Shown here piece by piece: positions 1 through 38,306 of a DNA stretch of 51,596 nt. Where the stretch lies: contig CALXWC010000012.1 of NCBI GenBank assembly GCA_944392265.1, forward strand, positions 1 to 51,596, written 5' to 3'. The stretch comes from an uncultured Alphaproteobacteria bacterium (GTDB lineage Bacteria; Pseudomonadota; Alphaproteobacteria; RF32; CAG-239). A program made the translations under genes and the position numbers. Numbering within the stretch: the stretch's first letter is position 1; the number at the start of each line of letters is the position of its first letter. The notes under the pieces are model-generated. The model ran no database searches. It was not told the origin of the DNA and worked only from the letters and a program-made list of their open reading frames with translations.

Positions 1-1
1 C

Positions 2-637
2 AGCCAAACTCAAAGTGCCGATGGTCAAGACTGGGAATGGGAATATGAAGAAGTTCCTGAAGATGATGATGCTTCTGGTATGCAAGCTCAAGCCAGCCAA
101 ACTCAAAGTGCCGATGGTCAAGACTGGGAATGGGAATATGAAGAAGTTCCTGAAGATGATGATGCTTCTGATATGCAAGTTCAGCCCAAACAAACTCAAA
201 GTGCCGATGATCAAGATTGGGAATGGGAATATGAAGAAGTTCCTGAAGAAGAGACTTCCGACATTCAAGCTCAAGCAAACGAACCTCAAAACGCTGATGG
301 CCAAGATTGGGAGTGGGAATATGAAGAAGTTCCTGAAGATGATGATGCTTCTGGTATGCACGCTCAACCCGACCAAACTCAAAGTGCCGATGATCAAGAT
401 TGGGAATGGGAATATGAAGAAGTTCCTGAAGATGATGGCGCTACTGATATGCAAGCTCAGGCTGGCACTTCTTCTCCATCATTTGGAGATATTCCTCAGC
501 TTAAAGATGAAGATTTGGATAATATTTTGGACGACTTTGCTTCTGATGTTTCTGAAGAAACATTTATGGGAAATAATTTTAATCAGGATACCGCTGATAA
601 GGATATATATCATACACATACTGAGCCCAAAGCTTAA
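2..637 (+). CDS. Acidic Trp-rich tandem-repeat protein (5'-truncated)
   Basis: The reading frame is already open at the first full codon, so the N terminus lies outside the window. What is visible is one partial and four complete units of about 31 residues (93 bp; one unit is 30 residues), beginning near 80, 173, 263 and 356 and degenerating after 449. Each unit carries an invariant core, QDWEWEYEEVPE, followed by an Asp/Glu run, and a Gln-rich spacer. The non-repeated tail of about 60 residues is acidic. No signal peptide or membrane segment is visible in this part. It is followed 55 bases later by the 693 gene on the same strand, so it may share an operon with the secretin-like cluster. I do not recognise a family. 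The repeated DNA is a candidate for copy-number variation between strains. An overlapping +1-frame reading is also open but is low-complexity and is taken as a shadow. Confidence 0.75.
   Translation, partial: SQTQSADGQDWEWEYEEVPEDDDASGMQAQASQTQSADGQDWEWEYEEVPEDDDASDMQVQPKQTQSADDQDWEWEYEEVPEEETSDIQAQANEPQNADGQDWEWEYEEVPEDDDASGMHAQPDQTQSADDQDWEWEYEEVPEDDGATDMQAQAGTSSPSFGDIPQLKDEDLDNILDDFASDVSEETFMGNNFNQDTADKDIYHTHTEPKA
80..448 (+). repeat. 93-bp tandem coding repeats
   Basis: Four near-identical in-frame units begin at 80, 173, 263 (the 173 unit is 90 bp) and 356. A fifth partial copy lies upstream at 2-79. The units preserve frame and encode the DWEWEYEEVPE core. The nucleotide sequence is nearly identical between units, which points to recent duplication or ongoing recombination. 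Confidence 0.85.
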
Positions 638-3290: not shown

Positions 3291-3318
3291 AAAAAAAAGA
3301 CCGAAAGGTCTTTTTTTT
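3291..3318. terminator. Bidirectional Rho-independent terminator
   Basis: A perfect hairpin, A8-GACC-GAAA-GGTC-T8, sits between the convergent 2605 gene and virB11. The T tract runs into the virB11 stop codon. It works as a terminator in both directions. Confidence 0.9.
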
Positions 3319-4285
3319 ATGTTACTTCCGTTACGGCTCTTAAGTTGCCGTCACGATTAATTTGAACCACGCGCAGTTTCTTTTTCATTTCTTGAATTGT
3401 TTTATTTCTATCTATTGTCGGAGAAGCGTGCATAATTCTGTCTACAAAAGCATTATAGGCTGCTTCAGAACTTTCTGCGTGGATTGTTGCTAAACAGTTA
3501 TCATGTCCTGAGCCCATAAGCTCCCAAATTGCAGCTGCATTACTGGTTGAAATCTCACCTCCGATAATGGCATCTGGAGTGAAACGAACCACTAAGTCAA
3601 TAACTTTAGCATAAGTTAAGTCGTTGGTTTGTTCTGTACGAGATAAGGTTATATGAACCCGATTTGGGTGCGGAACAATTAATTCTCTTGTATCTTCAAT
3701 TGTTAAAATTCTTTTATGAATATCAAGTATTTTAAGAAGGTTATTCAAAAATGTTGTTTTACCGGTAGCGGTAGCACCTGAAACCAAAATATGGTCACCC
3801 CTTTTAATACTTAATAAGAGTTTTTCATATGGATCATCAGGATCTTTTATTTGTTTTAAAACGTTTATTTGGTGCAACTTGTTGCCTTGCGACAAGCCAT
3901 AATCGCCTAAACCAAATGCCACATCATCACTATGAATACGAATAGTTAAGGCAACACCACCAGTTAAGTCATCTTGGTCATACATAACATTTTTTCCTGC
4001 TATGGCAGAAAAACGATGCTCTCCCGGAATTGTTGCATAAACAACCGGACTTCCTGATACCGGATCAAAAGGAAGCTCATAGGTATTTGCTATGATATAT
4101 AACAAATCAACCAAATAATCTTTGGTTAATTTTTCATCTTTATACATTACCCAAGGATAAGCTCTTTTTCCACGCAACCGTAGCCAAATTTGCCCAGAGC
4201 GATTTATGGCCACCTCTTCTATGTTATCTTGTGTATACCATTGTGATAATGGGCGTAAAACTGACTCTAAAACAGCAAATGTCAT
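3317..4285 (-). CDS. virB11: VirB11-family T4SS ATPase
   Basis: The product has 322 residues, the usual size for VirB11. It is the hexameric traffic ATPase at the cytoplasmic base of a type IV secretion system. The N-terminal domain (residues 1-150) is followed by Walker A GATATGKT (~170-177), an Asp box (TIEDTREL, ~196-202), Walker B DAIIGGEI (~238-245) and the His box GHDNCLATIHA (~260-270). It is the last gene of the minus-strand locus; its Shine-Dalgarno AAGGAG overlaps the stop codon of the VirB10-like gene. The GGEI in Walker B and the IHA ending are typical of VirB11 rather than PilT, and the operon position (after VirB9/VirB10) settles the call. Confidence 0.93.
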   Translation of the reverse strand: MTFAVLESVLRPLSQWYTQDNIEEVAINRSGQIWLRLRGKRAYPWVMYKDEKLTKDYLVDLLYIIANTYELPFDPVSGSPVVYATIPGEHRFSAIAGKNVMYDQDDLTGGVALTIRIHSDDVAFGLGDYGLSQGNKLHQINVLKQIKDPDDPYEKLLLSIKRGDHILVSGATATGKTTFLNNLLKILDIHKRILTIEDTRELIVPHPNRVHITLSRTEQTNDLTYAKVIDLVVRFTPDAIIGGEISTSNAAAIWELMGSGHDNCLATIHAESSEAAYNAFVDRIMHASPTIDRNKTIQEMKKKLRVVQINRDGNLRAVTEVT

Positions 4286-4294
4286 CTTTCCTCC

Positions 4295-7200
4295 TTAAAA
4301 TAATTGCGGAACCGAATTATCTTTTGAGCTATTTGAAGAATTACCTCCACTTGATCCTCCGGCATTTGATCCTCCAGAACCTCCTGTTTCGGAATTATAG
4401 CTTGATGAAGGCGGCGGAGGGGGTAATGCTACCACAGGCTTGGTTGTTTGAGGCTGTGTCTTCTTATTTTTATCTGAAGCAATTAATGGTTTTGATGCAG
4501 GTTTTTCTTCTTCATAACTTACTTGACCATTATTTGAAGTATCTAATCCAGATGATTGTTGACGACTTCTGTTGTTATCCAATTCTTTCTCTCTTCTTCT
4601 TGTCTCGCCATCAATCAAGACATCTTTTCTTGTATTGAGCTCTATTGCTTCTTGATCATTTTCCAATGTCCTTAACCATAAATCAACATTGGGGAACACG
4701 ATAATTCTGGTTCCTGCTGGGACATATGACATCGCTTGGATACTTGATTTATCCTGCAAAATTTGCTCAAACATCTGATTCATTTGATCTAAGAAGTTTT
4801 GACGTGCATCATTTGCAGCTTCTTGCTTTGAAGATTCTGTTTCCCCGTTATTTTCTTCATCCGTTGCCATCATATATGCCATGGAACTTGTTAAAACAGT
4901 TGTCATAACAGGCATGGTATAACGCTTGAAGAGTTGTTTATCCATGTAACCTAATGCACCGCCGCGACCTTGTGCATCTGCTGTGATACCTGTAAACTTA
5001 AACATAGAACCATCTGGACGAATTAATCTGTTCCAGTTAATTTGAACCTTTGCTGATTCTGATGATGTTTCAGATGTTTGGGTTAAGCTTCCGAATACGC
5101 CTATCAATCGACTTCCTGCCGGTATCAAAATATTTCTACCTTCTTCAGCATACACATTTCTTTCAACAAATGCCGTTACCGGCGTTGGATATCTGGAATC
5201 TATAGAACGTGCTAATACTGCTGGAATCGGCTTATCAGCTAAAATCATTGAGCTCATATCAACACGCCATGAAGAAATAACCTGATCTTCATCGTCCCAT
5301 TTTTTCTGCATGCCATCAAAAGCCTCTTTTCTGATGTTGGTGCTGATTTTTCCAACCTGCATGTTTTGTCTTCTTTGGCTTTGAGCAACACCTAAAGCCA
5401 TTCTACGTTGTTGGCTATATCTTTCTCCAGGACCATATCCGCCTCCAGGACCTAAATTTGATCCAGAACCCTCTCCAACTCCATAAGCGGCTCCCGTGCC
5501 AAATGTTCCTGCCGGTACAAATATATCTCCGTCTTTGGGTTTTGTTATTTCTTCTATACCAATTAATGTTCCATTTTTATCAATGATTAAGCCATCAGGC
5601 ATTTTTTGACCAATTACTTTTCCGGTTTTATCAACGACATCTCCATTTTCAAGAATATCTCCCAAATATTCTCCATCAGGAGTTAAGGCTATACTTAACG
5701 CCTTTCGATAACTTCCATCAATCTTTGTATCTTGTCTTTTTCCTTTATCTTTAATAACTCCAACTTGAGGAATTTCATCATCATCGGAACTTTTAGATAT
5801 TTCTTTTGGAGCTTTTTCATACCAATCTAATCCGGCTCCACCAATTAAATTGTTATTAGCATTGCTTACCGTTCCATCTGAGTTAATTTTTCCGATGATT
5901 TTTCCTGATAAGTCTTTAACAGTTCCATCAGCTTGAACTTCTCCAACCAAATTACCTTTTTCATCATAAACTTTTCCATCAGAAAAAAGCTTGCCAATTA
6001 TATTTCCTAAGTTATCGACAATCTTTCCAGCAGCATCTTTTATGCCTATTGTTTTTCCGTTAAAGTCAACAACTTTGTTATCTGGCTGAACACGGCCAAT
6101 AATTTTTCCGTCAGAATCCCTAACAGCATTTCTGTCATCGACAATACCTATAATCTTACCGTTTTTATCTACAATGTTGTTATTTTTATCTTTGCTAGCA
6201 ATTGTTTTTCCATCAAGACCGATAACATTTCCATCTTCTTGCAAACGTCCGATAATATTACCATTTTCATCGACAACATTATTACTATCGCCTCTAAAAC
6301 CGATAATCTCCCCTTTATCATTTCGAACGAAGCCATATTCATCGACATAACCTATCTTATTGCCATTTTTGTCATAAACGTTTCCGTCAGCATCAATAGT
6401 TCCAATCAGATTGCCATTTTTGTCATAAACATAATTCGGATTTATTGTTCGTCCAATAATTTCACCGGCTTGATTACGAATAAAACCTTTTTCATCTTGA
6501 GAGCCGATTTTATTATTATTTTCATCTAGTAAATTGCCGTTTTCATCAAGTCTGCCTAAAATAGTACCATCTGCACTTAAAGCAATGCCGTTATGTGTTT
6601 CTGAAATAGCGCTAACCTTGCTATAATATTGCAAAGACGTTGCTTGCGCTATTTTTGTTCCTTGAGAATCTAAAACTTCTCCCTGAGCCGTTAGCGTTCC
6701 AACTTTTTGCATATTTTCATCTAGAACCTGACCATCTAATTGTAATTCACCAACAACTTCATTTTGATTATTGCGAATTAAATAATCTCTGTTTCCTCTG
6801 GCTATGACTTCATCTGCAGCATTAACGACAAATCCTCTTTGCAGTTGTCCCAAAACTTTATTATTAAAGCTTTTTACCACACCGTTTTTATCAATATAGC
6901 CGATGGCATTAAAGTCATTGTCGTAAATATAAAAATCATAAAGAGCAAAGCCTAATTCTTTTTTATCTTTTACAACTCTTCCGTCAAATTGAACATTGGC
7001 TATGTTTTCTGCTTTAGAATTAAATACTTTTCCCTCAGGAGAAATTATTCCCATAAAAGTTCCATCTTGATTAAAGGCAAATCTATATTGCAATACTTGC
7101 CCTATTGATTTTCCTTCATTTGATTTTGCATTTCCGTTGGGTTGAACATAACCAATCTCTCGACTGGAAGTATCTATAATTTTTCCGCTATAATCTGTTC

Positions 7201-9352
7201 TGCCTAAAATATTTCCCTTAAAATCTATTGCAGGAAGATACTTTATTGAACCTCCTAAATATTGTTTATCTGAATTTATCAAATATCCTTTTTGGTTCAT
7301 ACATCCTAAAAGCTTATTATCTAAATCAGAAACAGAACCTAAATTATCACTATTACCGATAACATTGCCCATATTATCAAAAACAAGCTTAGCATCTGAA
7401 TAAAAACCGACAACTCGTCCCGTTTCTCCTAACATTTGCCCGTTGGCCAGGATTTTTCCTAAATAAATTCCCTTACTGTTTCTAACATCACCTTGTGAAG
7501 ATAAAATACCAAGCTGATTGCATTGGTTGTCTGAAACAAGCCCTGGTGCGGCAACAAAACCTATAATATTGCCACTATTATCTAACAAATTGTCATTATA
7601 TATAACTTTTCCGATATTTCTTCCTGAAAAATCTGATACTGTAGCATTATCATTAACATATCCTTGCAAATTTCCTTGGAAATCAAATGCCATAAACTTA
7701 TGACTAACCACACCTGACTGAGGCATAATGGCAGGCGTAATTTTACCATCTGCTTTAATTGCGGCAAGCTCCGGCAATACTTTAGCTACAATATCTTTAT
7801 TTTTATTAATGATTAAATTATTGTTAGCTAAATATCCAATAAAATCTGTTGCAAATCCAGTAGCGTATAATCCTGAAATAACTTTTCCCAACAAATCTTT
7901 TTTATCATTGAAAGCAAAGCCTGAAGAGCTTATTTTTCCTATTTTTTGACCATCCAGAGCATTAATTTGCCCATTCAAATTCAATGATGCTATATTTGCT
8001 CCTATCTTATTATACAATGCTTGCGGTAAAAATGTTTTTCCGGCATATTCGCCATCTAAATTAAATAAGAATCCGAACGGAGAAACCTTTAAGCTTTGGC
8101 TTTCTTGGCTAATTGCCATATCTGCCGTTGCCATTCCGACAAATTCATTACTCTTATCAAAACCCAAATAAGCTTCAGCGACTGCACCTATGACTTTTCC
8201 TTGCTTATTCAATGCAAAACGACCATATGTTCTACCGATGCTATTTCCTGATAAAGAAATAACCGTACCATCTTTTAAGGCATGTGCAACTAAATCGCCC
8301 TTATAATCGTATATCGGGCCACTTTTAGACAGTTTTCCTTGATAGCTTCCATCCTTTGCTAAGGCATCACCTTTGCCAATTAACTCAAGATCTGTTTCTG
8401 TAGCTTGAACTATTTTTCCGTTAGGAAGCAATCTTCCTAAGACAACACCTTTATTATTTCTGATAACGGAAGCCATATCCAAAACAGTACCTATAACTTC
8501 ATCTTTATCATTAATAATCTTTCCATCAGCTCTTTGACGTCCGTTGAGTTGACCATCTTTGTATACGTTTCCATCATAAGAAACGTATCCCAAATAACGG
8601 CCTAAATTGTCATAAGCGTATGAAGATGAAACTATTCCACCAATTATTTGATTGTTTTTATCATAAACAAAACCATTGGCATGAACATTACCCAAATCTT
8701 CTCCGTTTAACCCCGTAACAACGCCACCCGGAGTAACACTTCCTAAAAAATTTCCAGATAAAGAAACGACTATTCTTGAAGAAATTAATCTGCCGGCCAA
8801 AACTGCCTCATCTGCTACTTGTTTATACGCATAACCATCTGCCGTCATAAAGCCGATTTTTTTACCCATCAAGTCTGTGTATTGTCCGTCTCCGGTCAGT
8901 CTTCCAACTGTTTCTCCTTTATCATCATAGACCAACCCCGGAAATAAAACTGCACCTAATATCTTATAATTTTCATCTACGACAAAACCACTTGGAAGCA
9001 CCTTACCGACAACTTTTCCAGAAGCTGAACGAACTGTTCCGTCAACACTAACAATACCTAATACTTTAGTATCATTAGCGATTGCAACACCTTGTGGGAT
9101 AATCGCCCCAATAAGTTTACCATCAAAATCCGTAACATAGCTGTCTGCATTTACTTTTCCGATAAGTTGATTATCAAAGCCAACAACATTTCCGTCAGGA
9201 ATAATTTTTCCTAATAAATTTCCGTTAAAATCTATTGCAGATATTTCTTGTGCATCAACATTTTTTACGAACGCAAATAAACAGCAAAAAGCAAAAGTAA
9301 TAACTTTTGCTGTTCTTTTTATCTTCTTATTTATCAATTTTGCGCTTTGCAT
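4295..9352 (-). CDS. virB10: Giant repeat protein with C-terminal VirB10/TrbI domain
   Basis: The product has 1685 residues against about 400 for ordinary VirB10. Residues 1-35 form a basic, hydrophobic export signal or membrane anchor ending near VDA-QE. From about residue 37 to 1265 the protein consists of roughly 70 copies of a 17-residue repeat with consensus D.NGNIIG.V.PDG.V, interrupted near 1180-1225 by a non-repeated charged stretch. A glycine-rich linker follows. Residues ~1365-1560 are a recognisable VirB10/TrbI domain, with landmarks KPIPAVLARSI, LIPAGSRLIGVFG, NRLIRPDG and YVPAGTRIIVFPNVDLWL; the helical stretch between them is the antenna that forms the outer-membrane pore in known VirB10 structures. 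The tail is Pro/Ser/Gly-rich. It lies six bases after the second repeat protein and ten before virB11. The repeats may let it span or brace the periplasm. This is inferred. Confidence 0.85.
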   Translation of the reverse strand: MQSAKLINKKIKRTAKVITFAFCCLFAFVKNVDAQEISAIDFNGNLLGKIIPDGNVVGFDNQLIGKVNADSYVTDFDGKLIGAIIPQGVAIANDTKVLGIVSVDGTVRSASGKVVGKVLPSGFVVDENYKILGAVLFPGLVYDDKGETVGRLTGDGQYTDLMGKKIGFMTADGYAYKQVADEAVLAGRLISSRIVVSLSGNFLGSVTPGGVVTGLNGEDLGNVHANGFVYDKNNQIIGGIVSSSYAYDNLGRYLGYVSYDGNVYKDGQLNGRQRADGKIINDKDEVIGTVLDMASVIRNNKGVVLGRLLPNGKIVQATETDLELIGKGDALAKDGSYQGKLSKSGPIYDYKGDLVAHALKDGTVISLSGNSIGRTYGRFALNKQGKVIGAVAEAYLGFDKSNEFVGMATADMAISQESQSLKVSPFGFLFNLDGEYAGKTFLPQALYNKIGANIASLNLNGQINALDGQKIGKISSSGFAFNDKKDLLGKVISGLYATGFATDFIGYLANNNLIINKNKDIVAKVLPELAAIKADGKITPAIMPQSGVVSHKFMAFDFQGNLQGYVNDNATVSDFSGRNIGKVIYNDNLLDNSGNIIGFVAAPGLVSDNQCNQLGILSSQGDVRNSKGIYLGKILANGQMLGETGRVVGFYSDAKLVFDNMGNVIGNSDNLGSVSDLDNKLLGCMNQKGYLINSDKQYLGGSIKYLPAIDFKGNILGRTDYSGKIIDTSSREIGYVQPNGNAKSNEGKSIGQVLQYRFAFNQDGTFMGIISPEGKVFNSKAENIANVQFDGRVVKDKKELGFALYDFYIYDNDFNAIGYIDKNGVVKSFNNKVLGQLQRGFVVNAADEVIARGNRDYLIRNNQNEVVGELQLDGQVLDENMQKVGTLTAQGEVLDSQGTKIAQATSLQYYSKVSAISETHNGIALSADGTILGRLDENGNLLDENNNKIGSQDEKGFIRNQAGEIIGRTINPNYVYDKNGNLIGTIDADGNVYDKNGNKIGYVDEYGFVRNDKGEIIGFRGDSNNVVDENGNIIGRLQEDGNVIGLDGKTIASKDKNNNIVDKNGKIIGIVDDRNAVRDSDGKIIGRVQPDNKVVDFNGKTIGIKDAAGKIVDNLGNIIGKLFSDGKVYDEKGNLVGEVQADGTVKDLSGKIIGKINSDGTVSNANNNLIGGAGLDWYEKAPKEISKSSDDDEIPQVGVIKDKGKRQDTKIDGSYRKALSIALTPDGEYLGDILENGDVVDKTGKVIGQKMPDGLIIDKNGTLIGIEEITKPKDGDIFVPAGTFGTGAAYGVGEGSGSNLGPGGGYGPGERYSQQRRMALGVAQSQRRQNMQVGKISTNIRKEAFDGMQKKWDDEDQVISSWRVDMSSMILADKPIPAVLARSIDSRYPTPVTAFVERNVYAEEGRNILIPAGSRLIGVFGSLTQTSETSSESAKVQINWNRLIRPDGSMFKFTGITADAQGRGGALGYMDKQLFKRYTMPVMTTVLTSSMAYMMATDEENNGETESSKQEAANDARQNFLDQMNQMFEQILQDKSSIQAMSYVPAGTRIIVFPNVDLWLRTLENDQEAIELNTRKDVLIDGETRRREKELDNNRSRQQSSGLDTSNNGQVSYEEEKPASKPLIASDKNKKTQPQTTKPVVALPPPPPSSSYNSETGGSGGSNAGGSSGGNSSNSSKDNSVPQLF
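5550..9250 (-). repeat. ~70 degenerate 51-bp coding repeats (17-aa units)
   Basis: This is the repeat array of the VirB10-like protein. The period is 17 residues with a near-invariant Gly at the IG/LG position and a second Gly in PDG or similar. Amino-acid conservation is higher than nucleotide identity, so the array is old or maintained by selection. Edges are approximate. The pattern resembles the repeats Pfam groups as DUF3659, although I could not search. Confidence 0.85.
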
Positions 9353-9358
9353 TAAAAA

Positions 9359-12300
9359 CTAATTCCTCCGATTTTTTGCAACCTCTTGCAATACATATCC
9401 TGCAATTTTTTTATCCAGATTGATATAAGAACCATTATTTTTTATATAGCCAATATTTTGCCCTTTAGTATCAATCACATGGCCTTGCGCATCTATTCGA
9501 CCAATATATTTTCCGCTGTTTTCTAAAACACCGGAGCCAATTTTAAATATTCTTCCTAAGATTTCTCCATTATTTTTGATTGCCAAATCTTCCGATATAG
9601 CTCGACCAATAACGGCACCGTCTTTTGCTCTAATTGTAGCATCAATATTTACATAACCTACTACTTTATCATCATTACTCACAACAATTTCACCACGGAG
9701 TAATTCTGCATATACTTTTCCCGTCTCCGTTACGATACTTCCATCAGGCACCAAACGTCCAACTATATTTTTTTGTGAATTTATAACCTTTCCGTCAGGA
9801 CGCATTACACTTTCTACTCTGCCTTCAAAATTTAATACTATACCCTGAGGTTTTAAGCTTAAGCCATTATCACTTCCACCACCAGGCAAAACAAGACCAT
9901 CGGTTTCATTCTTCAAATCTAAGACATCACCCAAACCGTTAATATATCCTCTATACTCGCCCCAAGAATTCAGCATGATATCTTCTTCCAAAACCTCACC
10001 GATAACTTCCCCTTGCGATGTTATAATTTTTTTATCTGATGTTGCATTGCCATTATTTTTTCCTGAGAAATCTATAATCTGGCCATTACCCATCACTTTA
10101 CCGAGATAAGAACCATCATATCCTAAAGCAATACCATCTCTTAAATAGCTACCAATATAGTTACCTTTAGAATCATAAGCATTTCCTCTAGAATCAATTG
10201 CCCCAAGTTTTTCTCCGTAAAGGCTTACCACGCTTCCATCTGGCAAGGCTTTTCCTAATAATTTTCCTTGAAAGTCAATAATTGTTCCTTGCGGCATCAG
10301 ATATGATAAATTTTTTCCGACAAAATTGTATTTTGTTCCTAAAAAGTCTGCGATGTTTCTGCCTTTTACATCATAAAACTGTCCATCATAGAATAATTTT
10401 CCCAGAACCTGATTTTTTCCGTTAATTAAAAATGACTTATCTTCAATTGCCAAGCCAACAATATTATTCTTTTCATCTAACAAAAGATTATTTGCCGCAA
10501 GATGAGCCTTTTTATCATCTTCATATTCAACTGTTCCGGTATCATCGACAATATCTATAAACTTCCCTGATAAATCAAAGGCATATTTTGTTTCTTGGAC
10601 ATGTCCAACATACTGTCCTTTTACATCGAAAACATCTCCATTTATATTGGTACATCCCAATACTTTTTTCTGAGCATTTTCCAGTAACCCTGTATGATTT
10701 ATTTCACCCAAATAGCGATAGTTACTATCTAACACATAACCTTTCTGTAAAACCCTTCCGATAACGCTTCCTTTTTCATCCAAGACTCTTCCATCCGGAT
10801 TAACACACCCGATATATTTTCCATAAGCATCTCGTGCCAAACCGTCTGACTGAACACTTCCTAATAACAAACATTTATCATTAAAAATATTTCCGGTTTT
10901 TATAACTTCCCCTAAATATTTTCCGGCATTATCCGTTACCGTTCCGTCAAAATTTATTTTAGCATTAACAATCTGATTATCCTTTTTTATTATGCCATCT
11001 TTATCTAAATATCCTACTGATTTGCAACCATATCCAACGACCAAGCCGCCATTCAATGTTCTTGCTAAAACTTGAGAACCTGATATATCTTTTACCAAGC
11101 CGTTCGATAATACTCGTCCGACAATTTGCTTCTGTGCATCAACAACATTGCCTTCGTTTGTTATTGTTCCTAAAACTTTTCCATCTACCGTAATCGGCAA
11201 TTTTTCAGGCTCAACTAATTTTCCTAATATCTCGGGGGTTATTGAGATAATTTTACCATTTTCATTAACAATGCCAATTTGGTTTCCATTGGCATCCCAG
11301 ACGGTTTTATCTTCGCGAACCGTACCTATAATATTTCCATCCTGATCTAAAGCGTTCTTTCCGTCATTGGCAACCATACCAACAATCTTATCTCTTACTA
11401 CCTCTCCCTTTTCATTAATATGTCCAACGACCCTTCCTGATGCATTTACAACGCTTCCATTAGGCATTACAACGCCTAATTTATTGCCATCTTTATCTAC
11501 GGCAACTCTTCCTTGTTTTGAAACAGAACCGAGTATATTCCCTTGCAAATCAACAATTTGACCATCGCCTCTCACACGACCTATTACATTGTTATTTTTA
11601 TCGACAACACTTCCATCCGGCAATACTTTTCCAATTATGTTGCCGTTTTCATCATAAATATATCCTGTTTCTATTGCTCTTCCGATTGTATTGCCATTTT
11701 CATCAACAATACTTCCATCCGGCAAAACTCTACCAATAACGTTGCCGTTCTTGTCTATAACCTTACCCTCGGCATTAATATAACCTATAACATTACCATT
11801 TTCATCAATAGCTATTCTTTGATTATCAGCAATACCAATAATATTACCTTTATCATCAACAATTAAACCGTTACTATTTACTCGACCGATAATATTTCCT
11901 CTGGCATCACGAACCAAACCATCTTCGCCAATTGTTCCGATAATTTGTCCTTCTGTTCCAATTGCTAAACGAAGACCTTTACTTTTATCAGGAGCTGCAT
12001 TTGTTACACTGCCCGGAACATTTTCGCATATGTTACAATCTTCTTTACTAACAGCACTTCCAATAACCGGAATTTTTTCTGATTTTGCGCTGCTTGCCCC
12101 CACATTACTTTCATGCCAACTTACTATAAAGTTATTTTGAACATTACCGCCGACTACAGGAATCCATTTCATGTCTATATGGCATGTATCTTTGCCAGAT
12201 AAGATTTTTCCGCTACATCCATCAGTAAAACTGAACCCTTCTGCCGGAGGATCTGCCAATAAAACAGACACTATTTTGATAGAGGCTTTTCCATTGGTTC

Positions 12301-12637
12301 CAATAGTTAGAACATTTTTAGCATCTGTTCCTAAAATAACTTCTCCCATCGGAATCGGATTTGGAGTTGCTGTTATTGGGATTTCTTGTTCTTCAACAGT
12401 TTGAAATTCTAAATTATTACTTAAAAGAGGATCATCTTTTTCGTTTGATAATACATCAGCATTATCTGTAAAATTTGGCTCTTCATAATCGTAGTTGCCA
12501 TCATCTTCAGAAACAAGTAGCATTACACCAAATAAAAATATAACAAGAGAAACCAAGCCGACTATTAAAATTATTCGGTTGGTTTTCTTAACATAAGCTT
12601 CTGAAGCAGTTATATTTTTTTGGTTCTTTTCGCTCAT
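9359..12637 (-). CDS. Inner-membrane-anchored repeat protein with Ig/ASH-like domain
   Basis: The product has 1092 residues. A short cytoplasmic N terminus precedes one membrane span at residues 21-43 (IILIVGLVSLVIFLFGVMLL), the same topology as the N-terminal part of VirB10. An acidic linker follows. Residues ~85-195 look like an Ig-like domain of the ASH/Hydin type, with PNPIPMGEV at its start and a paired Cys segment CSGKILSGKDTCHIDMKWIP. From residue ~221 to the end the protein is about 50 copies of the 17-residue repeat also found in the next gene. It has no VirB10 C-terminal domain. The start overlaps the virB9 stop (ATGA), and the end is six bases before the start of the VirB10-domain gene. 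The two genes plausibly divide the work of one VirB10: this one anchors in the inner membrane and the other forms the outer-membrane part. Confidence 0.8.
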   Translation of the reverse strand: MSEKNQKNITASEAYVKKTNRIILIVGLVSLVIFLFGVMLLVSEDDGNYDYEEPNFTDNADVLSNEKDDPLLSNNLEFQTVEEQEIPITATPNPIPMGEVILGTDAKNVLTIGTNGKASIKIVSVLLADPPAEGFSFTDGCSGKILSGKDTCHIDMKWIPVVGGNVQNNFIVSWHESNVGASSAKSEKIPVIGSAVSKEDCNICENVPGSVTNAAPDKSKGLRLAIGTEGQIIGTIGEDGLVRDARGNIIGRVNSNGLIVDDKGNIIGIADNQRIAIDENGNVIGYINAEGKVIDKNGNVIGRVLPDGSIVDENGNTIGRAIETGYIYDENGNIIGKVLPDGSVVDKNNNVIGRVRGDGQIVDLQGNILGSVSKQGRVAVDKDGNKLGVVMPNGSVVNASGRVVGHINEKGEVVRDKIVGMVANDGKNALDQDGNIIGTVREDKTVWDANGNQIGIVNENGKIISITPEILGKLVEPEKLPITVDGKVLGTITNEGNVVDAQKQIVGRVLSNGLVKDISGSQVLARTLNGGLVVGYGCKSVGYLDKDGIIKKDNQIVNAKINFDGTVTDNAGKYLGEVIKTGNIFNDKCLLLGSVQSDGLARDAYGKYIGCVNPDGRVLDEKGSVIGRVLQKGYVLDSNYRYLGEINHTGLLENAQKKVLGCTNINGDVFDVKGQYVGHVQETKYAFDLSGKFIDIVDDTGTVEYEDDKKAHLAANNLLLDEKNNIVGLAIEDKSFLINGKNQVLGKLFYDGQFYDVKGRNIADFLGTKYNFVGKNLSYLMPQGTIIDFQGKLLGKALPDGSVVSLYGEKLGAIDSRGNAYDSKGNYIGSYLRDGIALGYDGSYLGKVMGNGQIIDFSGKNNGNATSDKKIITSQGEVIGEVLEEDIMLNSWGEYRGYINGLGDVLDLKNETDGLVLPGGGSDNGLSLKPQGIVLNFEGRVESVMRPDGKVINSQKNIVGRLVPDGSIVTETGKVYAELLRGEIVVSNDDKVVGYVNIDATIRAKDGAVIGRAISEDLAIKNNGEILGRIFKIGSGVLENSGKYIGRIDAQGHVIDTKGQNIGYIKNNGSYINLDKKIAGYVLQEVAKNRRN
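9371..11977 (-). repeat. ~50 degenerate 51-bp coding repeats (17-aa units)
   Basis: The second array has the same 17-residue consensus as the array at 5550-9250. The most regular copies lie at the N-terminal side of the array (about 11550-11950), with units such as DENGNIIGKVLPDGSVV. Later copies are increasingly divergent, and one insertion lies near 9840-9900. Confidence 0.85.
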
Positions 12638-14334
12638 TGTGTTCTTACTACGCTACAAAATACGCCATTTCTTCCAAGTTTAGAGCATACGGCATCACCT
12701 TCTTCTAAACTTTTAACAGGTCCCACTCTTAAATGGAACAACTCTTTTCCCTGACCGTCAGCCGGTGTATCTACTGAATAATAAGGTTCATATCCGGCTA
12801 AATCAGACTTATACCTTCCGCTTAAAGAACCCCATAGACTTTCTAATTTACTTACGTCAGAATCTGTGCCCAATTCTATTGAGATATTTGTATTCATATC
12901 TGTAAAGCCACTACCATATCCGTATTGTTGTAAATATTTTGCATTACCATTTTGAGCGTTAGCTAAAGATTGGTTCGGCAATTTTTGCATCTTTGAATAA
13001 TCATACAAACCCGTTACCGATCCTTGATGTATTTGCTGCGCATTTGCTTGGTTTCCATACATATTTTGAGCCGCACTCATTCCTTGCATTCCGGACATAC
13101 CTCCAGCCATTCCCATTGGCATATTATTACCGCCGTTCATATTATTGTTCATGTATCCACCGGATGAACTCATTGACATGCCAGATGAAGACTGCCCTGC
13201 TAAAGCATACTCCGAATTAAAGGTCTGAGGCTGTCCTTCACTAAAAGCGGCACTAAAATCACCGTTTTTAAGCGGAGGAGGAACATCCCAGCCCGGTTTA
13301 GCATCATCTGCATAAACACCATATTCCAAGCCAGCAGAATCTGCTCTACGTAACTTCAGACAAATCAATCTTTTTCCATTACGCAAAACCATATCTCCGA
13401 CAGCTTCCACAACGATTAAGCGATTGTTTGGCCCTTTGGTTCTAAAACCAACCGGTGTTTCTACCTTTTCATTAATTAAGGTTACAATCGGGCGCTGTGT
13501 CATATTTAACGCTTTATTTCCCAAATCAATATAAGTAAAGATATCATCGCGCCATACTCTTTCCGGAGCAATAATAACATCTTCCGGATTGGGAACATAA
13601 ACTTCTATATCAAAGCGGAATTTTTCCGGATCAACCGGAATTGATTTTAGCCAATCATCTTTTTGATTTCTTCTTGTGTAGGTTGATGCTACAGATTTAG
13701 AATTACCTCCTGAAAATGACGCTCCTTTTCCACCGTTAGATACAGAAGCTCCCATACCGCCACCAGAACCGTTTGAATCTTCACCAATAACATCAATATC
13801 AATAATAGAGTTAGTCAACTTTTCGGTATTAACACCCTCACTTCTTACATAAAAAACATATCTGTTTCCGGAACGTCCAAAAATGATAACGTTTGTATCT
13901 ACACCGACATTGGCTCCTTTTTTAGGATACAAGAGCACGGTATTAGGACCGGAAATTTGACCATCAAATGTAGAGTTATCTCCCAAATAAACATCTTCCA
14001 CCATTTCCCATTCAGGAAAGTTCAACATAGTAATCATACCTTCGCGAACACGAATCGGCAACACCAAGTCCGGAGACCAATAATATTTGGAATAAGCAGG
14101 TTTTGTTTGACCCTCGCCCAAATTTTGCAAAGGATCCAACCATGCATTTTGCATCATACCGATAGAACCAAAGCCAGCATAAGACATATCCATCTGTCTA
14201 TATTGTCCCATGTCTTGGTCAGCACTTTGATCAAGAGCATTTGCCTGAGCTTGCGCGTCTTTTACGCCACACAGTACACTAACTAAAAATAAAAACAACA
14301 ACTCTACTTTTTTTGAAACCATCTTTTGCACCAT
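12634..14334 (-). CDS. virB9: VirB9-family T4SS core protein with C-terminal SPOR domain
   Basis: The product has 566 residues, about twice ordinary VirB9. It has a signal peptide ending near AQAQA. Residues ~85-180 match the VirB9 N-terminal domain (LVLPIRVREGMITMLNFPEWE, NVIIFGRSGNRYVFYVRSEG). Residues ~245-345 are the VirB9 C-terminal domain, with the FTYIDLG and PVGFRTKGPNNRLIVVEAVG landmarks that pair with VirB10 in the outer-membrane core. A Met/Asn/Gly-rich linker follows. Residues 484-566 form a SPOR domain (start ISIELG, centre FHLRVGPVKSLEEG, end GVFCSVVRTQ). SPOR domains bind denuded peptidoglycan glycan strands, so this VirB9 may fix the core complex to cell wall undergoing remodelling. 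The stop overlaps the next start by ATGA. No frame disruption separates the parts. Confidence 0.9.
   Translation of the reverse strand: MVQKMVSKKVELLFLFLVSVLCGVKDAQAQANALDQSADQDMGQYRQMDMSYAGFGSIGMMQNAWLDPLQNLGEGQTKPAYSKYYWSPDLVLPIRVREGMITMLNFPEWEMVEDVYLGDNSTFDGQISGPNTVLLYPKKGANVGVDTNVIIFGRSGNRYVFYVRSEGVNTEKLTNSIIDIDVIGEDSNGSGGGMGASVSNGGKGASFSGGNSKSVASTYTRRNQKDDWLKSIPVDPEKFRFDIEVYVPNPEDVIIAPERVWRDDIFTYIDLGNKALNMTQRPIVTLINEKVETPVGFRTKGPNNRLIVVEAVGDMVLRNGKRLICLKLRRADSAGLEYGVYADDAKPGWDVPPPLKNGDFSAAFSEGQPQTFNSEYALAGQSSSGMSMSSSGGYMNNNMNGGNNMPMGMAGGMSGMQGMSAAQNMYGNQANAQQIHQGSVTGLYDYSKMQKLPNQSLANAQNGNAKYLQQYGYGSGFTDMNTNISIELGTDSDVSKLESLWGSLSGRYKSDLAGYEPYYSVDTPADGQGKELFHLRVGPVKSLEEGDAVCSKLGRNGVFCSVVRTQ
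12637..12885 (-). other. SPOR domain coding segment of VirB9
   Basis: This encodes the last 83 residues of the VirB9 protein. The order of an LG strand, a W..L helix, the LRVGPV strand, a Cys-containing helix and the final CSVVR strand is that of the SPOR fold common in Alphaproteobacteria. Confidence 0.85.
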
Positions 14335-14335
14335 G

Positions 14336-15067
14336 TTACTGAACCTTATTAAAGGTTAATGAATATCTTTCTACCGTAAAACCGACCGGATTTTTCAAAC
14401 GCTCAGCATATTTTACCGTTTTTCCTCTGTATCTGATTTTCAATGCCGCCGTCCAATAGTTAATTTCAGGCTGGTTTGAATTCGGATACATATCTGTTGT
14501 TTCATACTCGACCTGCCACAAACCTGAAGTCAATTCGTTTGCTGAAATAATTTTAACACTTCTGGTTAAGCCTTTATTTTTTATAATATCCAACGCTCTA
14601 ATAGCCGTTTTCTTTCTAAAATCTTCATATACAGCAGGAGACGACATTTCCTGAACCGGACCTCCAGGCATCCATCTCGCTTCCATTTCTCCGATGTTTG
14701 AAGTAAAAGAACTACGCAACAAAACATATTGGCGAACAAACACTTCAGTTACACCTCGTTCGCTTTCCATATTTTTCAATGGACGTATATTGTATACTTG
14801 ATCATTTTTGTTTTGGAAGGTTACCAAAAACGGCTCAACACGAAACAGCGGAATCGTCTGGAAAATTGCCAACAACAATATTATGTTGCAGCATATACTA
14901 ACAGCCGTAATTACTGCAAAGGCACGAGCTGTCCAAAGATATCTTTTTTCAGCAATATTTGCGACAAAGACGTCTTCTGTTTGCGGTATCGAATCCTGAG
15001 GCATTCCTGTTGTTCTGCCACCAATCAGTTTCGGTGCGGCCTTATTTCCTTCCAAACTATCTACCAT
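14336..15067 (-). CDS. virB8: VirB8-family T4SS inner-membrane protein
   Basis: The product has 243 residues. A cytoplasmic N terminus of ~45 residues is followed by one span (AFAVITAVSICCNIILLLAIF) and a periplasmic NTF2-like VirB8/TrbF domain. The family landmarks are LFRVEPFLV just after the span and NPVGFTVERYSL at the C terminus. VirB8 joins the inner-membrane platform to the core complex. The gene is one base away from virB9 and 18 bases after the small lipoprotein. A second VirB8-family protein is encoded at 15404-16150; the two share domain plan but clearly differ in sequence. Confidence 0.92.
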   Translation of the reverse strand: MVDSLEGNKAAPKLIGGRTTGMPQDSIPQTEDVFVANIAEKRYLWTARAFAVITAVSICCNIILLLAIFQTIPLFRVEPFLVTFQNKNDQVYNIRPLKNMESERGVTEVFVRQYVLLRSSFTSNIGEMEARWMPGGPVQEMSSPAVYEDFRKKTAIRALDIIKNKGLTRSVKIISANELTSGLWQVEYETTDMYPNSNQPEINYWTAALKIRYRGKTVKYAERLKNPVGFTVERYSLTFNKVQ

Positions 15068-15403: not shown

Positions 15404-16150
15404 CTAAAAAACTTCTACTTCTGTTTGCGAATATCTGGTTACGGTAAAACCTAGCGGATTGATTAATCGTCGCCCCATAAACATTCTTTCTTTATAAAAG
15501 TTTGCCGTTATTGATGCCGTCCAATAATGTTCTTCTAATTTTAATCCTGCTTCCGCTCTGCCATATTTTCTTACGACATATGTCTTAAAATCCACTTTCC
15601 AAACCTTACTCTTTTTTCCACCTTGACGCGCTAAAGAAATAATTTCAACTTCTTGTACATTTTCTTCTTGGACTTTATTTTTTTCTTTTTCTTCTCTAAA
15701 GTTTCTAAATACCATTGGTGATGACAAAAAGTGTATCATACCTCCAGGCAACCATCGGCTATCCATCTCTCTTTGATCATTTATTATTGTATTTCTTAAA
15801 ATAACATATTGTTTAATAAATGTTTCGAGCAACAAATCCTTTGAAGCCATGTCCAATTCAATAGGCTCAGTTCTTACCAAATCTTCTGAACTGCTTTGAT
15901 TGATGATTAAAAACGGCTCGACTTCCACAAGAGGTGCTAAACGAAACAAAGCCAAACTTGCACTCAGAAAGAAAATAAGAGAGACGGAAGATAAGAAAAT
16001 AAACAATCTTGATATCCACAAATAATAAACCATTTTAAAACTTGTGTTTATCTGCTCATTGGTCGTTATAAATTGTGGAATATTCTGCTTTCTTCCGTCT
16101 GTAATTGACAGATTTTCATTCCCTCTACCCAATATATTTTGATTGTTCAT
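15404..16150 (-). CDS. Second VirB8-family protein
   Basis: The product has 248 residues. The N-terminal tail is polar, then one membrane span (FIFLSSVSLIFFLSASLALF), then a VirB8 periplasmic domain with RLAPLVEVEPFLI after the span and NPLGFTVTRYSQ at the end, which matches the family even better than the 14336 copy. It is separated from that copy by the small lipoprotein and a 126-base gap. Two VirB8 paralogues also occur in the Rickettsiales vir homologue system, where one is thought to have a specialised role; whether that applies here is inference. The gene lies 11 bases after the 1201-residue exported protein. Confidence 0.9.
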   Translation of the reverse strand: MNNQNILGRGNENLSITDGRKQNIPQFITTNEQINTSFKMVYYLWISRLFIFLSSVSLIFFLSASLALFRLAPLVEVEPFLIINQSSSEDLVRTEPIELDMASKDLLLETFIKQYVILRNTIINDQREMDSRWLPGGMIHFLSSPMVFRNFREEKEKNKVQEENVQEVEIISLARQGGKKSKVWKVDFKTYVVRKYGRAEAGLKLEEHYWTASITANFYKERMFMGRRLINPLGFTVTRYSQTEVEVF

Positions 16151-16161
16151 TCAAAATCACC

Positions 16162-19100
16162 TTAATATGTTGGACAATAAGCCGGATTTAATGATTTTAG
16201 ATTTTGTTCAAAATCTTCATCTCCGGTTTTTTCATACGCTTCATCAACACTTTCATTTGCTTTGGCTGTTTTTAAATCTTCTCTAAATTCTGACAAATCA
16301 GATATTTCCATAGACAAATTCATAACCGCTGCATCATCAAGTACTAAGGCTGTATGCACTTTATTAAAGTTATTTTTATGATCTTTTAACATATCAGATT
16401 TTCCTGGATTTAAGTCATCCAACTTCTTTTTAGCTTTTGACATATAACTTTGTTTAATTGAATTTACTTTATCAAAGGCATATTCATAATCTTCTTGATT
16501 TGAAATATCAAAATCTTCAGACATGGTTATTCCGAAAGATGCAAAACTTTCTTTCAAATCTTCTTGGCTTTCTTTAATACTTTCTGCCAATTCATCTAAA
16601 GCCTTTTGATAATCTTGTTCAACCTCAAAGTGATCCAAGAAATCTCCAACCTGATTGGTTTTATATTGAGCTCTTACATAAACATTATCATTTATGTTTT
16701 CTTCTTTTGACAATTCTTCACTATCTTTATCTTCTGCTCTTTTTTCCATTCTGGTTCCATAATTTGCAATGGACTGCATAGGAATACTTAGACCTAAAAC
16801 ATTTTCTACCATTGTGCCATCAGATACCATTTTGCCTGAGTAAATATTTAAAATTGTACCTAATTCGCTATATGGTGTAAATTCAAAAGCGGCTTTGTGA
16901 CTAATATTTATCGGACCATTTTCTTTTTCTTTCGGGAAAGACAAATAAGCCTTACCTTTGCCCAACAAGCCTGATTCACATCCTACATTTACTTCTTGGC
17001 AAGTTGGCAAATCCATTTGCGCCAGTTTTTGACTCTCTTCATTGTTGGCAAAATCAAGAACCATTCTGTATTCTTCGTTTTTCAAATCTCTTTCAAAAAC
17101 ATCTATGTATGCGGTACCATTGTTAACCTTATCTGGAATATTACATACACCTTTTAGATTGTTTTTAATATTCTTTAACACACAAGGATATACACCGCCT
17201 CTGAAAATAGATGCTTTTTCTCCACCCATGCTTAAAGGATTAATCTGATTACCCAATATTGTGGCTAATTGGTCAACAATTCCTGAAGATGGTTTCATTT
17301 TTTCACTTAAATAGAAATCACTTTCCACAAAAGCTTTGTCTTTTAACATCAATTTCCAAATTTCAGGAATCCTTCCGCCATAATTTAAGAATTTTTCCTT
17401 ATCGATAATAGTCAATGCAATTGGCGATGTTTGTTGCCATAGCTTTTGCGGAACCGGAATTCCATTGTTACCTAAAATTGGAACTTCCATATACTCTCCG
17501 GCATAAAATTTAGCGCCATCTTTTCCAATATTTTGCAAATCTATATAATCTAAACGAACATATTCTCTTAACGGAGGCAAATCAAAAGTCGGGAATGCTT
17601 TTGGAGCTCTAAAATCTCTTTCTTTAGGCTCAAAACCTACAAAATAGTCATCATCAATCGATGAATCTACGGATTTTATCAAATCATCAAATACACTTAC
17701 CGTCAGCAAGACATCCGTATTCTTTACTTTATCTCTATAATCTGATAAATAAAGTTCTTTCATGCTTTCATCCATTGTTGCACTAATCACAATATCAATG
17801 TTAAAATTACTTAAAGCATGAACCTTGCCTGCTGCAGTCTCTAATTTAATATCTCCGACAACAGCTTCCTCTCCTTTCAATGAAGACATGTATGCCTGAT
17901 GATAAGAATCCACCACAGATTGAGCTGAACTTATATATAATTTATCTCCCAACGCTTTGTATGCAGAAATTAATTTTTCAATATTATCCAAAGCCTTTTC
18001 TCTGGCATCCTCAACAACCAAATTTGATTGTGCTATAATTTGCTGAGCTGTTATCATAGATTGGCTTCCTATTGCTGCTTTAGCTGCTAATTCAGCCTTA
18101 TCTATATTATCATTTTTTGTTTTTAATTCTTCTTCATATTCTGCTATTTTTTTCTTTTCATCATCTTTAACTCTTTGGGCTTCATCTGATACTTGATTGT
18201 TTATTATGCCTAAATCTTTTTGCAATTTGTCTTCAATTGCTTTGATGTCTTCTTCTAATTTATTATATTCTTCGGTTTTTTGAGTATATAAGTCATTTAA
18301 CTCTACTCTTCTTTTTTCACCTTCTTCCATAGACTTGCGAGCTATACTTATCTCATTATTAACTTCTTGGATTTGTTTTTCCAATGCAGTTTTATCTTCC
18401 TGACTTAATTCAGGAACATTAATTTGTTGAGTTAAGCTAGATAGTGTTGCATTTAAATTTGAAATTTCTTGATGTAAGATATTGTTTTCTTCTACTATTT
18501 CATTCTTTTCTTTTGAAATTTCATCTCTTTCTTTTTGCAACGCATCTTTGTTTCTTTCTAACGGTTCTATTTCTTTTTGAGATGCAACTTTCAAGTCTTC
18601 TTTTTCTTTTTCTTTCAGATTTTTATACGCCTCAATTTGGTTTTCTACATCTTTATTTAATTTTTCTACTTTTTCATTATGAAGTCTTTGAGCCGTTAAT
18701 TTAGCATCAACAGAGGCCTGTGTTAATTGTTTTTCTGCCTCATTCATATATTGTTTTTGATTATCAAAAACAGCCTTTGCTATTTTTTCATTTATTTCAT
18801 CTGAAATTTGATAATTCTTAATATATTCGTATATGTTCGCATATTTTCGAACCAAATATTGATTAAAGAATATCTTTTGGTCATTCCAAATCGGGAATGG
18901 CTGTTTTACGCCGCCTAAGTTTTCAGAATTCCATTCCGGTCCGCTACCCATTTCTTCATTGGCTAAATATTTTGCCATCCATTCTGCAACATTTGAGCCA
19001 ATATCAACACTCATTAACTCACTCTCTCTGGCAGATTTTTCCAATTCTGCCTGTTTGCTTGGTTCTTTGAAATAGTTTCCTTGGCTATCTTCTTCTAATT

Positions 19101-19767
19101 TATCTGCCTGCTCACTACCGCTCTTATGGACATCTTCCAAATTAAAACTATTTCCTTCGGCATCAACATTTATACCTATGGTTTCTGTTGTTGAGCTAAT
19201 TTCACTGTTTACTGTAATAAGATTTCCATCCTCATCATAAACATTACTTTCAGAAACATTTACGCTTACAACATCATCCGTGCTGATTGGTGATACTTCT
19301 GCTGCTTTTGCCGTTTCAAACAAATTAATTGCCCATGCAGACAGACCTTGTCTTTCATCGTGATTTTCCGGATGCTCACTCATATCTTTTCCGGACCAAA
19401 CTTTCAGAGGATCGTTAAAATAGCGTCCCATGTATTGCAATGTACATTGCTCTGAATTTCTTAAAAGCTCTATAGATTTATCATGCAATATCTTCATGTT
19501 ATTATATTGCTTTTGAATATTTTTATACCCTTTTAAGCTATTCATCAAGTTGTGCGCATCTACCGCAACCTGCAAATCTTCTGTAATCGGCTCTAATTTA
19601 TCCAGCTCATCCATTTCTGTTTCTGAACCTGAAAAAATACTTTTTACATTCGATGGTGCGGCCGCACACTGACCTAAACCGCAGAGCAGACTTTTTGCAC
19701 TAACCGTATTGTATGCAAGAGAACTCAAACTAACCAGAGCTAAAGCCATTAATAATTTCTTTTTCAT
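16162..19767 (-). CDS. Large exported coiled-coil protein of T4SS locus
   Basis: The product has 1201 residues. I chose ATG 19767 because a good ribosome site (AGGAG) lies just upstream and the N terminus then forms a classical signal peptide (KKKLLMALALVSLSSLAYNTVSA). An earlier in-frame ATG at 19818 would bury the signal. Residues ~330-640 are a long charged coiled coil; the flanks are globular and contain several cysteine pairs, including one at the mature N terminus, one in CVLKNIKNNLKGVC and one near the C terminus. There is no second membrane segment, so this is not a VirB6 despite its place before virB8. It is probably a periplasmic or surface component specific to this system. I recognise no family. 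Confidence 0.75.
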   Translation of the reverse strand: MKKKLLMALALVSLSSLAYNTVSAKSLLCGLGQCAAAPSNVKSIFSGSETEMDELDKLEPITEDLQVAVDAHNLMNSLKGYKNIQKQYNNMKILHDKSIELLRNSEQCTLQYMGRYFNDPLKVWSGKDMSEHPENHDERQGLSAWAINLFETAKAAEVSPISTDDVVSVNVSESNVYDEDGNLITVNSEISSTTETIGINVDAEGNSFNLEDVHKSGSEQADKLEEDSQGNYFKEPSKQAELEKSARESELMSVDIGSNVAEWMAKYLANEEMGSGPEWNSENLGGVKQPFPIWNDQKIFFNQYLVRKYANIYEYIKNYQISDEINEKIAKAVFDNQKQYMNEAEKQLTQASVDAKLTAQRLHNEKVEKLNKDVENQIEAYKNLKEKEKEDLKVASQKEIEPLERNKDALQKERDEISKEKNEIVEENNILHQEISNLNATLSSLTQQINVPELSQEDKTALEKQIQEVNNEISIARKSMEEGEKRRVELNDLYTQKTEEYNKLEEDIKAIEDKLQKDLGIINNQVSDEAQRVKDDEKKKIAEYEEELKTKNDNIDKAELAAKAAIGSQSMITAQQIIAQSNLVVEDAREKALDNIEKLISAYKALGDKLYISSAQSVVDSYHQAYMSSLKGEEAVVGDIKLETAAGKVHALSNFNIDIVISATMDESMKELYLSDYRDKVKNTDVLLTVSVFDDLIKSVDSSIDDDYFVGFEPKERDFRAPKAFPTFDLPPLREYVRLDYIDLQNIGKDGAKFYAGEYMEVPILGNNGIPVPQKLWQQTSPIALTIIDKEKFLNYGGRIPEIWKLMLKDKAFVESDFYLSEKMKPSSGIVDQLATILGNQINPLSMGGEKASIFRGGVYPCVLKNIKNNLKGVCNIPDKVNNGTAYIDVFERDLKNEEYRMVLDFANNEESQKLAQMDLPTCQEVNVGCESGLLGKGKAYLSFPKEKENGPINISHKAAFEFTPYSELGTILNIYSGKMVSDGTMVENVLGLSIPMQSIANYGTRMEKRAEDKDSEELSKEENINDNVYVRAQYKTNQVGDFLDHFEVEQDYQKALDELAESIKESQEDLKESFASFGITMSEDFDISNQEDYEYAFDKVNSIKQSYMSKAKKKLDDLNPGKSDMLKDHKNNFNKVHTALVLDDAAVMNLSMEISDLSEFREDLKTAKANESVDEAYEKTGDEDFEQNLKSLNPAYCPTY

Positions 19768-19777
19768 CTCTTTTCTC

Positions 19778-20452
19778 CTAGTCCTCTTTTGTCGGGTTGT
19801 ATGTCGGTTCAATTTCAAATCTGGTATAATATGCTGACTGCATTTGTGCTTTCAGTGCCACTAACTCTTGCAACATTGCCAAATATTGATCTGTCGTTTG
19901 ATCTATCATATATCTATTATATAATCCCTGATTCAAATCTTCTGCTTTAGTATAATCTTCTTCCAAGCGCACAATTTCCATATCCATTTCCAAGAGTTTT
20001 TTCTCCATTTGTCTGGCTGCCGTAAAGGCTTCTATTATTGTATCTTCATAAAACTCTTGTCTTTCTTCTTTATATGCATTTCGCACATTAATATCTTTTG
20101 ATGGATAGCGGAAAAAGAGTTCCGGGTATATATTTCTGATTTCTTCTTCACTCGTAATATCAACAACTTTACTTTCTTCTATTTTCTTGGTTCCAGGCAA
20201 TTGTGTGTTTTTTCTTGAAAACAACCCTTTGAAAAAGTCTTTCGCTGACTTGTAAAGTTGTAAAGTCTTTTTGACAATATTATTTGTAAAGCTTGTTACC
20301 TTGTTGGTTACAGAATTAACCGTATTAGGTATTTGCGTTGTCAAACTACCTGGGTCAAATATAGCCATAGCATCGTTATTAAGCGGAATTATGACTAAAT
20401 TCAGCGTTACAATTACTAAGATAAACAATTTTGCCAGAGAATTCTTCATCAT
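19778..20452 (-). CDS. Exported helical protein, VirB5-position
   Basis: The product has 224 residues with a signal peptide ending near AMA. The mature chain begins with an amphipathic T/N/V-rich helix region, then a globular middle, then a coiled coil in the C-terminal ~80 residues (ARQMEKKLLEMDMEIVRLEE). The start overlaps the stop of the preceding gene (TAATG) and follows a strong Shine-Dalgarno. VirB5 proteins are exported helical minor pilins of about this size, so this is one of several VirB5 candidates in the block. No direct motif proves it. Confidence 0.65.
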   Translation of the reverse strand: MMKNSLAKLFILVIVTLNLVIIPLNNDAMAIFDPGSLTTQIPNTVNSVTNKVTSFTNNIVKKTLQLYKSAKDFFKGLFSRKNTQLPGTKKIEESKVVDITSEEEIRNIYPELFFRYPSKDINVRNAYKEERQEFYEDTIIEAFTAARQMEKKLLEMDMEIVRLEEDYTKAEDLNQGLYNRYMIDQTTDQYLAMLQELVALKAQMQSAYYTRFEIEPTYNPTKED

Positions 20453-27313: not shown

Positions 27314-27593
27314 ATTTCATCCCCTTTACTTTATACAAATTCTTGGTTGGCTTATAGTTCTGACCGAAAGCTTGTAACATATTAGACAGATGAGGCTCTT
27401 TAGCTCCCAAACCAACAATTATAATATGCACAATCAATATTGACAGCAAAAAGAGTATGGGATTGATATTTCCCACACCAATTGCCATGAACATTAGCGG
27501 AAACTGAAGACCCAGATTCAAAAGCACAGGCAAAAAGGGCCCCCACAAAATTTTGGGAGGATTGGCCACCGCTTTTAATATCATTTCCCGCAT
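27303..27593 (-). CDS. virB3: VirB3-family T4SS membrane protein
   Basis: The product has 96 residues with two hydrophobic segments (ILWGPFLPVLLNLGLQFPLMFMA and ILFLLSILIVHIIIVGLG) followed by the family-typical AKEPHLSNML motif. VirB3 partners with VirB4 in the inner membrane. AGGAG lies just before ATG 27593. It is the first gene of the main virB transcription unit, because a strong terminator separates it from the pilin genes. Confidence 0.9.
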   Translation of the reverse strand: MREMILKAVANPPKILWGPFLPVLLNLGLQFPLMFMAIGVGNINPILFLLSILIVHIIIVGLGAKEPHLSNMLQAFGQNYKPTKNLYKVKGMKFAP

Positions 27594-31508: not shown

Positions 31509-31564
31509 TAAGTTGTTGCTTGCGCTTGATTATTTATTTTTCAATATATATGATAGGTTAAAAC

Positions 31565-33839: not shown

Positions 33840-33856
33840 TAATAAAGGGAAAAACG

Positions 33857-36614: not shown

Positions 36615-36629
36615 CTTGGACAATTAAAA

Positions 36630-38291: not shown

Positions 38292-38306
38292 AATTTGGAG
38301 AGTTTT

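Follow-up and report, generated by a model that had tools for sequence, protein, structure and literature searches.

In type IV secretion systems VirB10 is held to be alone among the subunits in connecting the inner-membrane complex to the outer-membrane ring (PMC12857230). Its ordinary type IVA form is one chain of about 400 amino acids (aa) that spans both membranes. Much larger forms exist, and in CagY of Helicobacter pylori, a giant orthologue of 1927 aa, the long middle region is made up of repeats that are cysteine-rich alpha-helical modules (PMC2581425, PMC10706595). The enlarged VirB10 homologue of the Legionella Dot/Icm system, DotG/IcmE, is a single chain, TrbI-like domain included (PMC8486379). 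Beta-flower proteins as so far described are single, small, symmetric 4- to 6-fold beta-hairpin barrels of about 100 aa (PMC10584680). A pair of adjacent genes in an alphaproteobacterial contig bears on all of these, for its products are probably the inner- and outer-membrane halves of one giant VirB10 that arose by gene fission and that bridge the two membranes jointly. The pair itself is real and conserved and, as far as the literature searched shows, undescribed; that search yielded nothing relevant on a split VirB10 or on the secretion systems of the order concerned.

The window, meaning the whole stretch of 51,596 nucleotides that was analysed, is contig 12 of a genome of 1.45 Mb that is 82% complete. 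Close relatives are metagenome bins from gut, rumen and faeces, including 'Azospirillum sp. CAG:239', and the order is one that we take to be RF32 of GTDB, with CAG-239 as the family. The order-wide survey took in 153 genomes, mostly short-read metagenome bins. In the window and in related loci the genes run VirB9, inner half, outer half, VirB11, and so the pair does recur next to virB9 and virB11, where a reading of the DNA from its sequence alone had proposed to look for it. The features of the cluster, all on the minus strand, are as follows.

3317 to 4285, minus strand: VirB11 ATPase, directly downstream of the pair (PF00437, E 3e-23)
4295 to 9352, minus strand: probable VirB10 outer half, 1685 aa (open reading frame, Pfam, unit profile)
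4673 to 5245, minus strand: TrbI/VirB10 domain of the outer half (PF03743)
9359 to 9380, minus strand: end of the inner-half gene with the Shine-Dalgarno site of the outer half (aaaaatCGGAGGaattag, then 6 nt to ATG), the same in most loci of the order
9359 to 12637, minus strand: probable VirB10 inner half, 1092 aa (open reading frame, Pfam, unit profile, structure model)
12634 to 14334, minus strand: VirB9 with a C-terminal SPOR domain, overlapping the inner-half gene by 4 bp (PF03524 CagX, E 2.5e-13)
14336 to 15067, minus strand: VirB8 (PF04335, E 3e-25)
15404 to 16150, minus strand: second VirB8-like protein (PF04335, E 2e-13)
24881 to 27313, minus strand: VirB4 ATPase (PF03135, E 2.4e-12)
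27303 to 27593, minus strand: probable VirB3, by position and size only, with no Pfam match
27747 to 28559, minus strand: VirB2-like pilin (PF04956, E 1.9e-9)
28569 to 28982, minus strand: second VirB2-like protein (PF04956, E 9e-4, below the cut-off)

A VirD4-like coupling protein is encoded on another contig of the genome, in which the relaxase profile PF03432 found no match. The SPOR domain of VirB9 is of the peptidoglycan-binding kind, and a similar C-terminus is present at two loci of other families (L023 and L128). The two adjacent VirB8 paralogues have diverged from each other, and most related loci likewise have two next to one another. Within the cluster, 16162-19818 (minus strand) encodes a secreted coiled-coil protein of 1218 aa that has no Pfam match; relatives have proteins of similar size in the corresponding position. 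Divergent from the cluster is a type IVb-like pilus cluster at 29685-40000 on the plus strand (TcpQ domain, secretin, PilO, PilB-type ATPase and T2SSF), and at the contig end a truncated ORF (1-470, plus strand) encodes tandem acidic-aromatic repeats (DWEWEYEEVPEDDDAS...).

The 1685-residue protein comprises a signal peptide (residues 1-34), repeats (40-1256), a linker with GGYGPGE, a TrbI domain (1370-1560) and a C-terminus ending VPQLF. The sequence-only reading had described it as an exported protein with about 70 repeats and the VirB10 C-terminal domain at its end, and so it is: PF03743 matches with an E value of 6e-37, there are about 71 repeat slots, and by sequence the protein matches the VirB10 chains ComB10 (2bhv, E 7e-22), TrwE, TraF and X. 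citri VirB10 in the PDB. To the claim of export can be added that the signal peptide is cleavable (VDA/QEIS) and that it stands where an ordinary VirB10 has its cytoplasmic tail and inner-membrane helix. All 72 outer halves of the order that were examined start with a signal-peptide-like sequence and then the motif EITAIDFNG, and 69 have a strict A-x-A. A whole-genome search found no second TrbI domain in the genome of the window (82% complete). The 1092-residue protein has a transmembrane anchor (residues 11-43), repeats (226-1071, about 50 slots) and the C-terminus KNRRN, and PF03743 is absent from it, again much as first described, with the exception of an ASH/PapD-like (choice-of-anchor-D) domain at about 88-196 that had been missed. 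The fold of that domain is well matched by HYDIN/CEP192 ASH domains (6fvi and 2e6j; Foldseek probability 1.00, TMt 0.62-0.65), with the sequence match being weak (PF15780, E 0.012). As the anchor sits on the 1092-aa chain, the 1685-aa chain alone is an incomplete VirB10, and only the pair has all the parts.

The two chains are built of the same repeat. Self-identity peaks in both at lags of 17, 34 and 51 residues, and at lag 17 is 0.216 and 0.201 against maxima of 0.125 and 0.103 in 200 shuffles. A profile of the unit, whose consensus D-x-x-G-[NK]-[IV]-[IL]-G-x-V-x-x-D-G-x-V is common to both, finds 41-42 units in the inner half and 60-62 in the outer, and 1-2 (maximum 5) in shuffled sequence. 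PF21785, the 5-fold beta-flower family, matches the two chains with E values of 1e-76 and 7e-61 (254 and 203 bits, where the curated cut-off is 38) in 12 separate stretches in each, and PF21784 and PF12396 (DUF3659) also match the repeats. The suggestion of a beta-strand pattern is borne out by AlphaFold2, whose models of the complete inner half (pLDDT 82.7, pTM 0.72) and of the outer half from residue 35 to 1234 (pLDDT 84.3, pTM 0.74) both predict two short strands per repeat and alternating strands along the entire array. The RHS_repeat profile matches the inner half (E 2e-6), and the best Foldseek matches of the outer-half model are YD/RHS ribbons (E 1e-30), a likeness that is local only. 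VIA-align gave no match for the array with a Z of 5 or more, and no PDB or viral structure match spans the arrays; a missing match of this kind does not show a new fold.

The outer-half gene starts 6 nt after the inner-half gene in the window, and in other loci the gap is mostly 0-4 bp; apparent overlaps at pair junctions come from the ORF caller, which picks the earliest start codon. In most loci the inner-half gene ends in aaa-aay-CGG-AGG-aay-stop, in which CGGAGG is the Shine-Dalgarno site. With the ribosome-binding site of one gene inside the last codons of the other, the two halves would be translated in tandem, and the invariance of the KNRRN C-terminus is at least partly due to the overlap of its codons with that site. 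Both genes are complete in 70 loci of the order, from independent assemblies, where their summed length is 2552-3498 aa. The same junction, conserved ribosome-binding site and signal peptide throughout reduce to a negligible chance the prospect that the split is an assembly error or a frameshift in one long gene, and for the order it is refuted. A case of just that sort is seen in another family (L128:2809-9371, genome G217), where a frameshift lies mid-repeat and there is no signal peptide; it was rejected as a second independent fission.

Across the order TrbI is present in 121 of 153 genomes, in frames of about 1380-2372 aa that are shorter only if truncated or broken, and the anchor is in a separate frame in 117/153. 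Neither a joined frame nor an additional conventional VirB10, the two findings that had been named as contrary to a split, came to light: anchor and TrbI share one frame in none of the 153 genomes, and none has an ordinary or second VirB10, the two TrbI matches of one genome (G526) being partial and at contig ends. TrbI is without a match in about 32 of the 153, so the system is dispensable. These include several complete genomes (G411, G434, G445, G459), in some of which a short stretch of beta-flower sequence survives, interrupted by stops in G411, and this suggests repeated loss of the system.

Outside the order the same parts occur in one chain. Fused proteins with anchor, ASH domain, repeats and TrbI together are found in other alphaproteobacterial families (1273 aa at L023, 2831 at L121, 2521 at L122, 2348 at L123, 2149 at L124, 2216 at L127 and 2193 at L135), which upholds the proposal that the role of VirB10 is here divided between two genes. 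The anchor and ASH profile matches residues 1-213 of the fused chains, and the inner half is thus homologous to the N-terminal part of the single-chain VirB10 relatives. At L127 residues 43-787 of the outer-half profile align nearly gap-free to 855-1600 of the protein (298 bits); L127 apart, the middle repeats are too alike for the position of the break in a single-chain array to be mapped with confidence. A sample of the phylum outside the class gave one weak match only, to the ASH-like part.

Since other families hold the same parts in one chain, the pair can be understood as a VirB10 that was inflated by beta-repeats and then split, most likely by a single event of gene fission. In a first TrbI tree all split forms make one clade (support 100/100); with two more split lineages added, a single origin gets support of 71/87, which is not strong, and the AU test allows it (p-AU 0.28). 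A very long branch leads to the outgroup, and the tree does not by itself root polarity. The converse history, in which two repeat-sharing proteins are ancestral and were fused independently in other families, would suit the two changes that the fused forms need on the trees and the result with VirB11 added, where the split rows are not on one side of a branch. It is nevertheless improbable: anchor and TrbI share a single chain in ordinary VirB10, the TrbI proteins in most other genomes of the class sample being about 360-680 aa, and a repeat-free single chain of 530 aa with an ASH-like domain and TrbI exists (L038). Fission rather than repeated fusion is favoured because single-chain VirB10 is the norm, and the tree does not prove the direction. 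At a locus of another family (L133:5044-10295, genome G067) there is an outer half with signal peptide whose reading frame has another break some 1.2 kb from its start; with the gene further broken and at contig ends, the split there counts for little.

Conservation is uneven along both chains. In the outer half it is 0.79 for the first 170 mature residues, 0.77 for TrbI and 0.55 for the remaining repeats; in the inner half it is 0.76 for the ASH domain, 0.76 for the first repeats and 0.73 for the last 90 or so residues. Judged from this pattern, the most conserved stretches, the ASH domain among them, are the obvious places at which the chains may touch one another or VirB8/VirB9. The two arrays themselves vary from 830 to 1880 and from 1043 to 1754 residues, with about two-fold differences between relatives. 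Changes of length come in units of 17 with a modest excess (17/55 and 15/50 gaps against about 9-10 expected). The conjecture that the repeat count sets a length, as a periplasmic ruler would, is not supported, for the raw anticorrelation between the array lengths (rho -0.56, in a set that includes one mis-measured locus, L024) vanishes under phylogenetic contrasts (r 0.21, sign-flip p 0.75). That the two lengths vary independently once phylogeny is counted, and that the outer half is a separate exported protein in its own right, would fit a different division of labour, in which VirB10 function falls to the outer half alone, a periplasmic or outer-membrane ring protein, and the anchored protein is an accessory scaffold, likened to DotF beside DotG, with no bridge rebuilt. 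This is rather unlikely, as several other families have anchor and ASH domain as part of VirB10 itself, the two genes are neighbours with coupled translation at nearly all loci, and the ends of the inner half are nearly as conserved as TrbI.

For the two halves of a jointly bridging VirB10, the following course can be proposed. The repeat array would have been inserted between the inner-membrane anchor and ASH region and the C-terminal TrbI ring domain, and the gene would later have broken inside the array in an ancestor of the order, perhaps also of a related family, after which the downstream part would have acquired a signal peptide as well as a ribosome-binding site for itself. One half being in the inner membrane and the other exported, they must meet in the periplasm unless another protein bridges them; there the anchored and exported chains may associate via their beta-hairpin arrays and do the job of one VirB10 chain, tying the platform of inner-membrane ATPase and VirB8 to the outer-membrane ring. 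The likeliest docking site would be the stretch of about 170 strongly conserved residues at the start of the exported chain, and beta-strand addition between like hairpins is a plausible, if putative, mode of pairing. With VirB10 encoded as two proteins, one anchored and one exported, the joint between the membranes would be non-covalent. The chances are about even that in this lineage the tie from inner to outer membrane is of two chains joined in this way through long beta-hairpin arrays; if it is, both signals and force have to pass through a periplasmic contact between two proteins.

Set beside the systems with which this account began, the pair is a variant of VirB10 and not a new kind of system. 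With the type IVA VirB10/TrbI proteins (TrwE, TraF of pKM101, X. citri VirB10, ComB10) it shares the C-terminal TrbI domain and the neighbours VirB9, VirB8, VirB11 and VirB4, but there are two chains with about 120 repeat slots between them. CagY is alike in its giant size and long middle repeat region, and there is a match to its TrbI part (8cb2); like other giant relatives with repeats, however, it is a single chain, and the repeats here are predicted to be all-beta. The likeness to DotG/IcmE with DotF, where the VirB10 homologue is again enlarged and accompanied by another protein of the core complex, is drawn from literature descriptions. The YD/RHS shells of Rhs, teneurin and TccC have a similar local strand pattern, but global superposition fails (TM about 0.1, rmsd about 30 Å). 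With the beta-flower proteins (PF21784 and PF21785, in clan CL0395 with Tubby) both chains share a repeat family, though here about 50 and 71 slots follow one another almost unbroken. That fold family was named in 2023 from predicted models, and the pair gives its repeat a setting in a machine whose parts are mostly known. A VirB10 chain cut throughout an order is also a natural experiment on the importance of covalent continuity, with one-chain and two-chain relatives both at hand for comparison.
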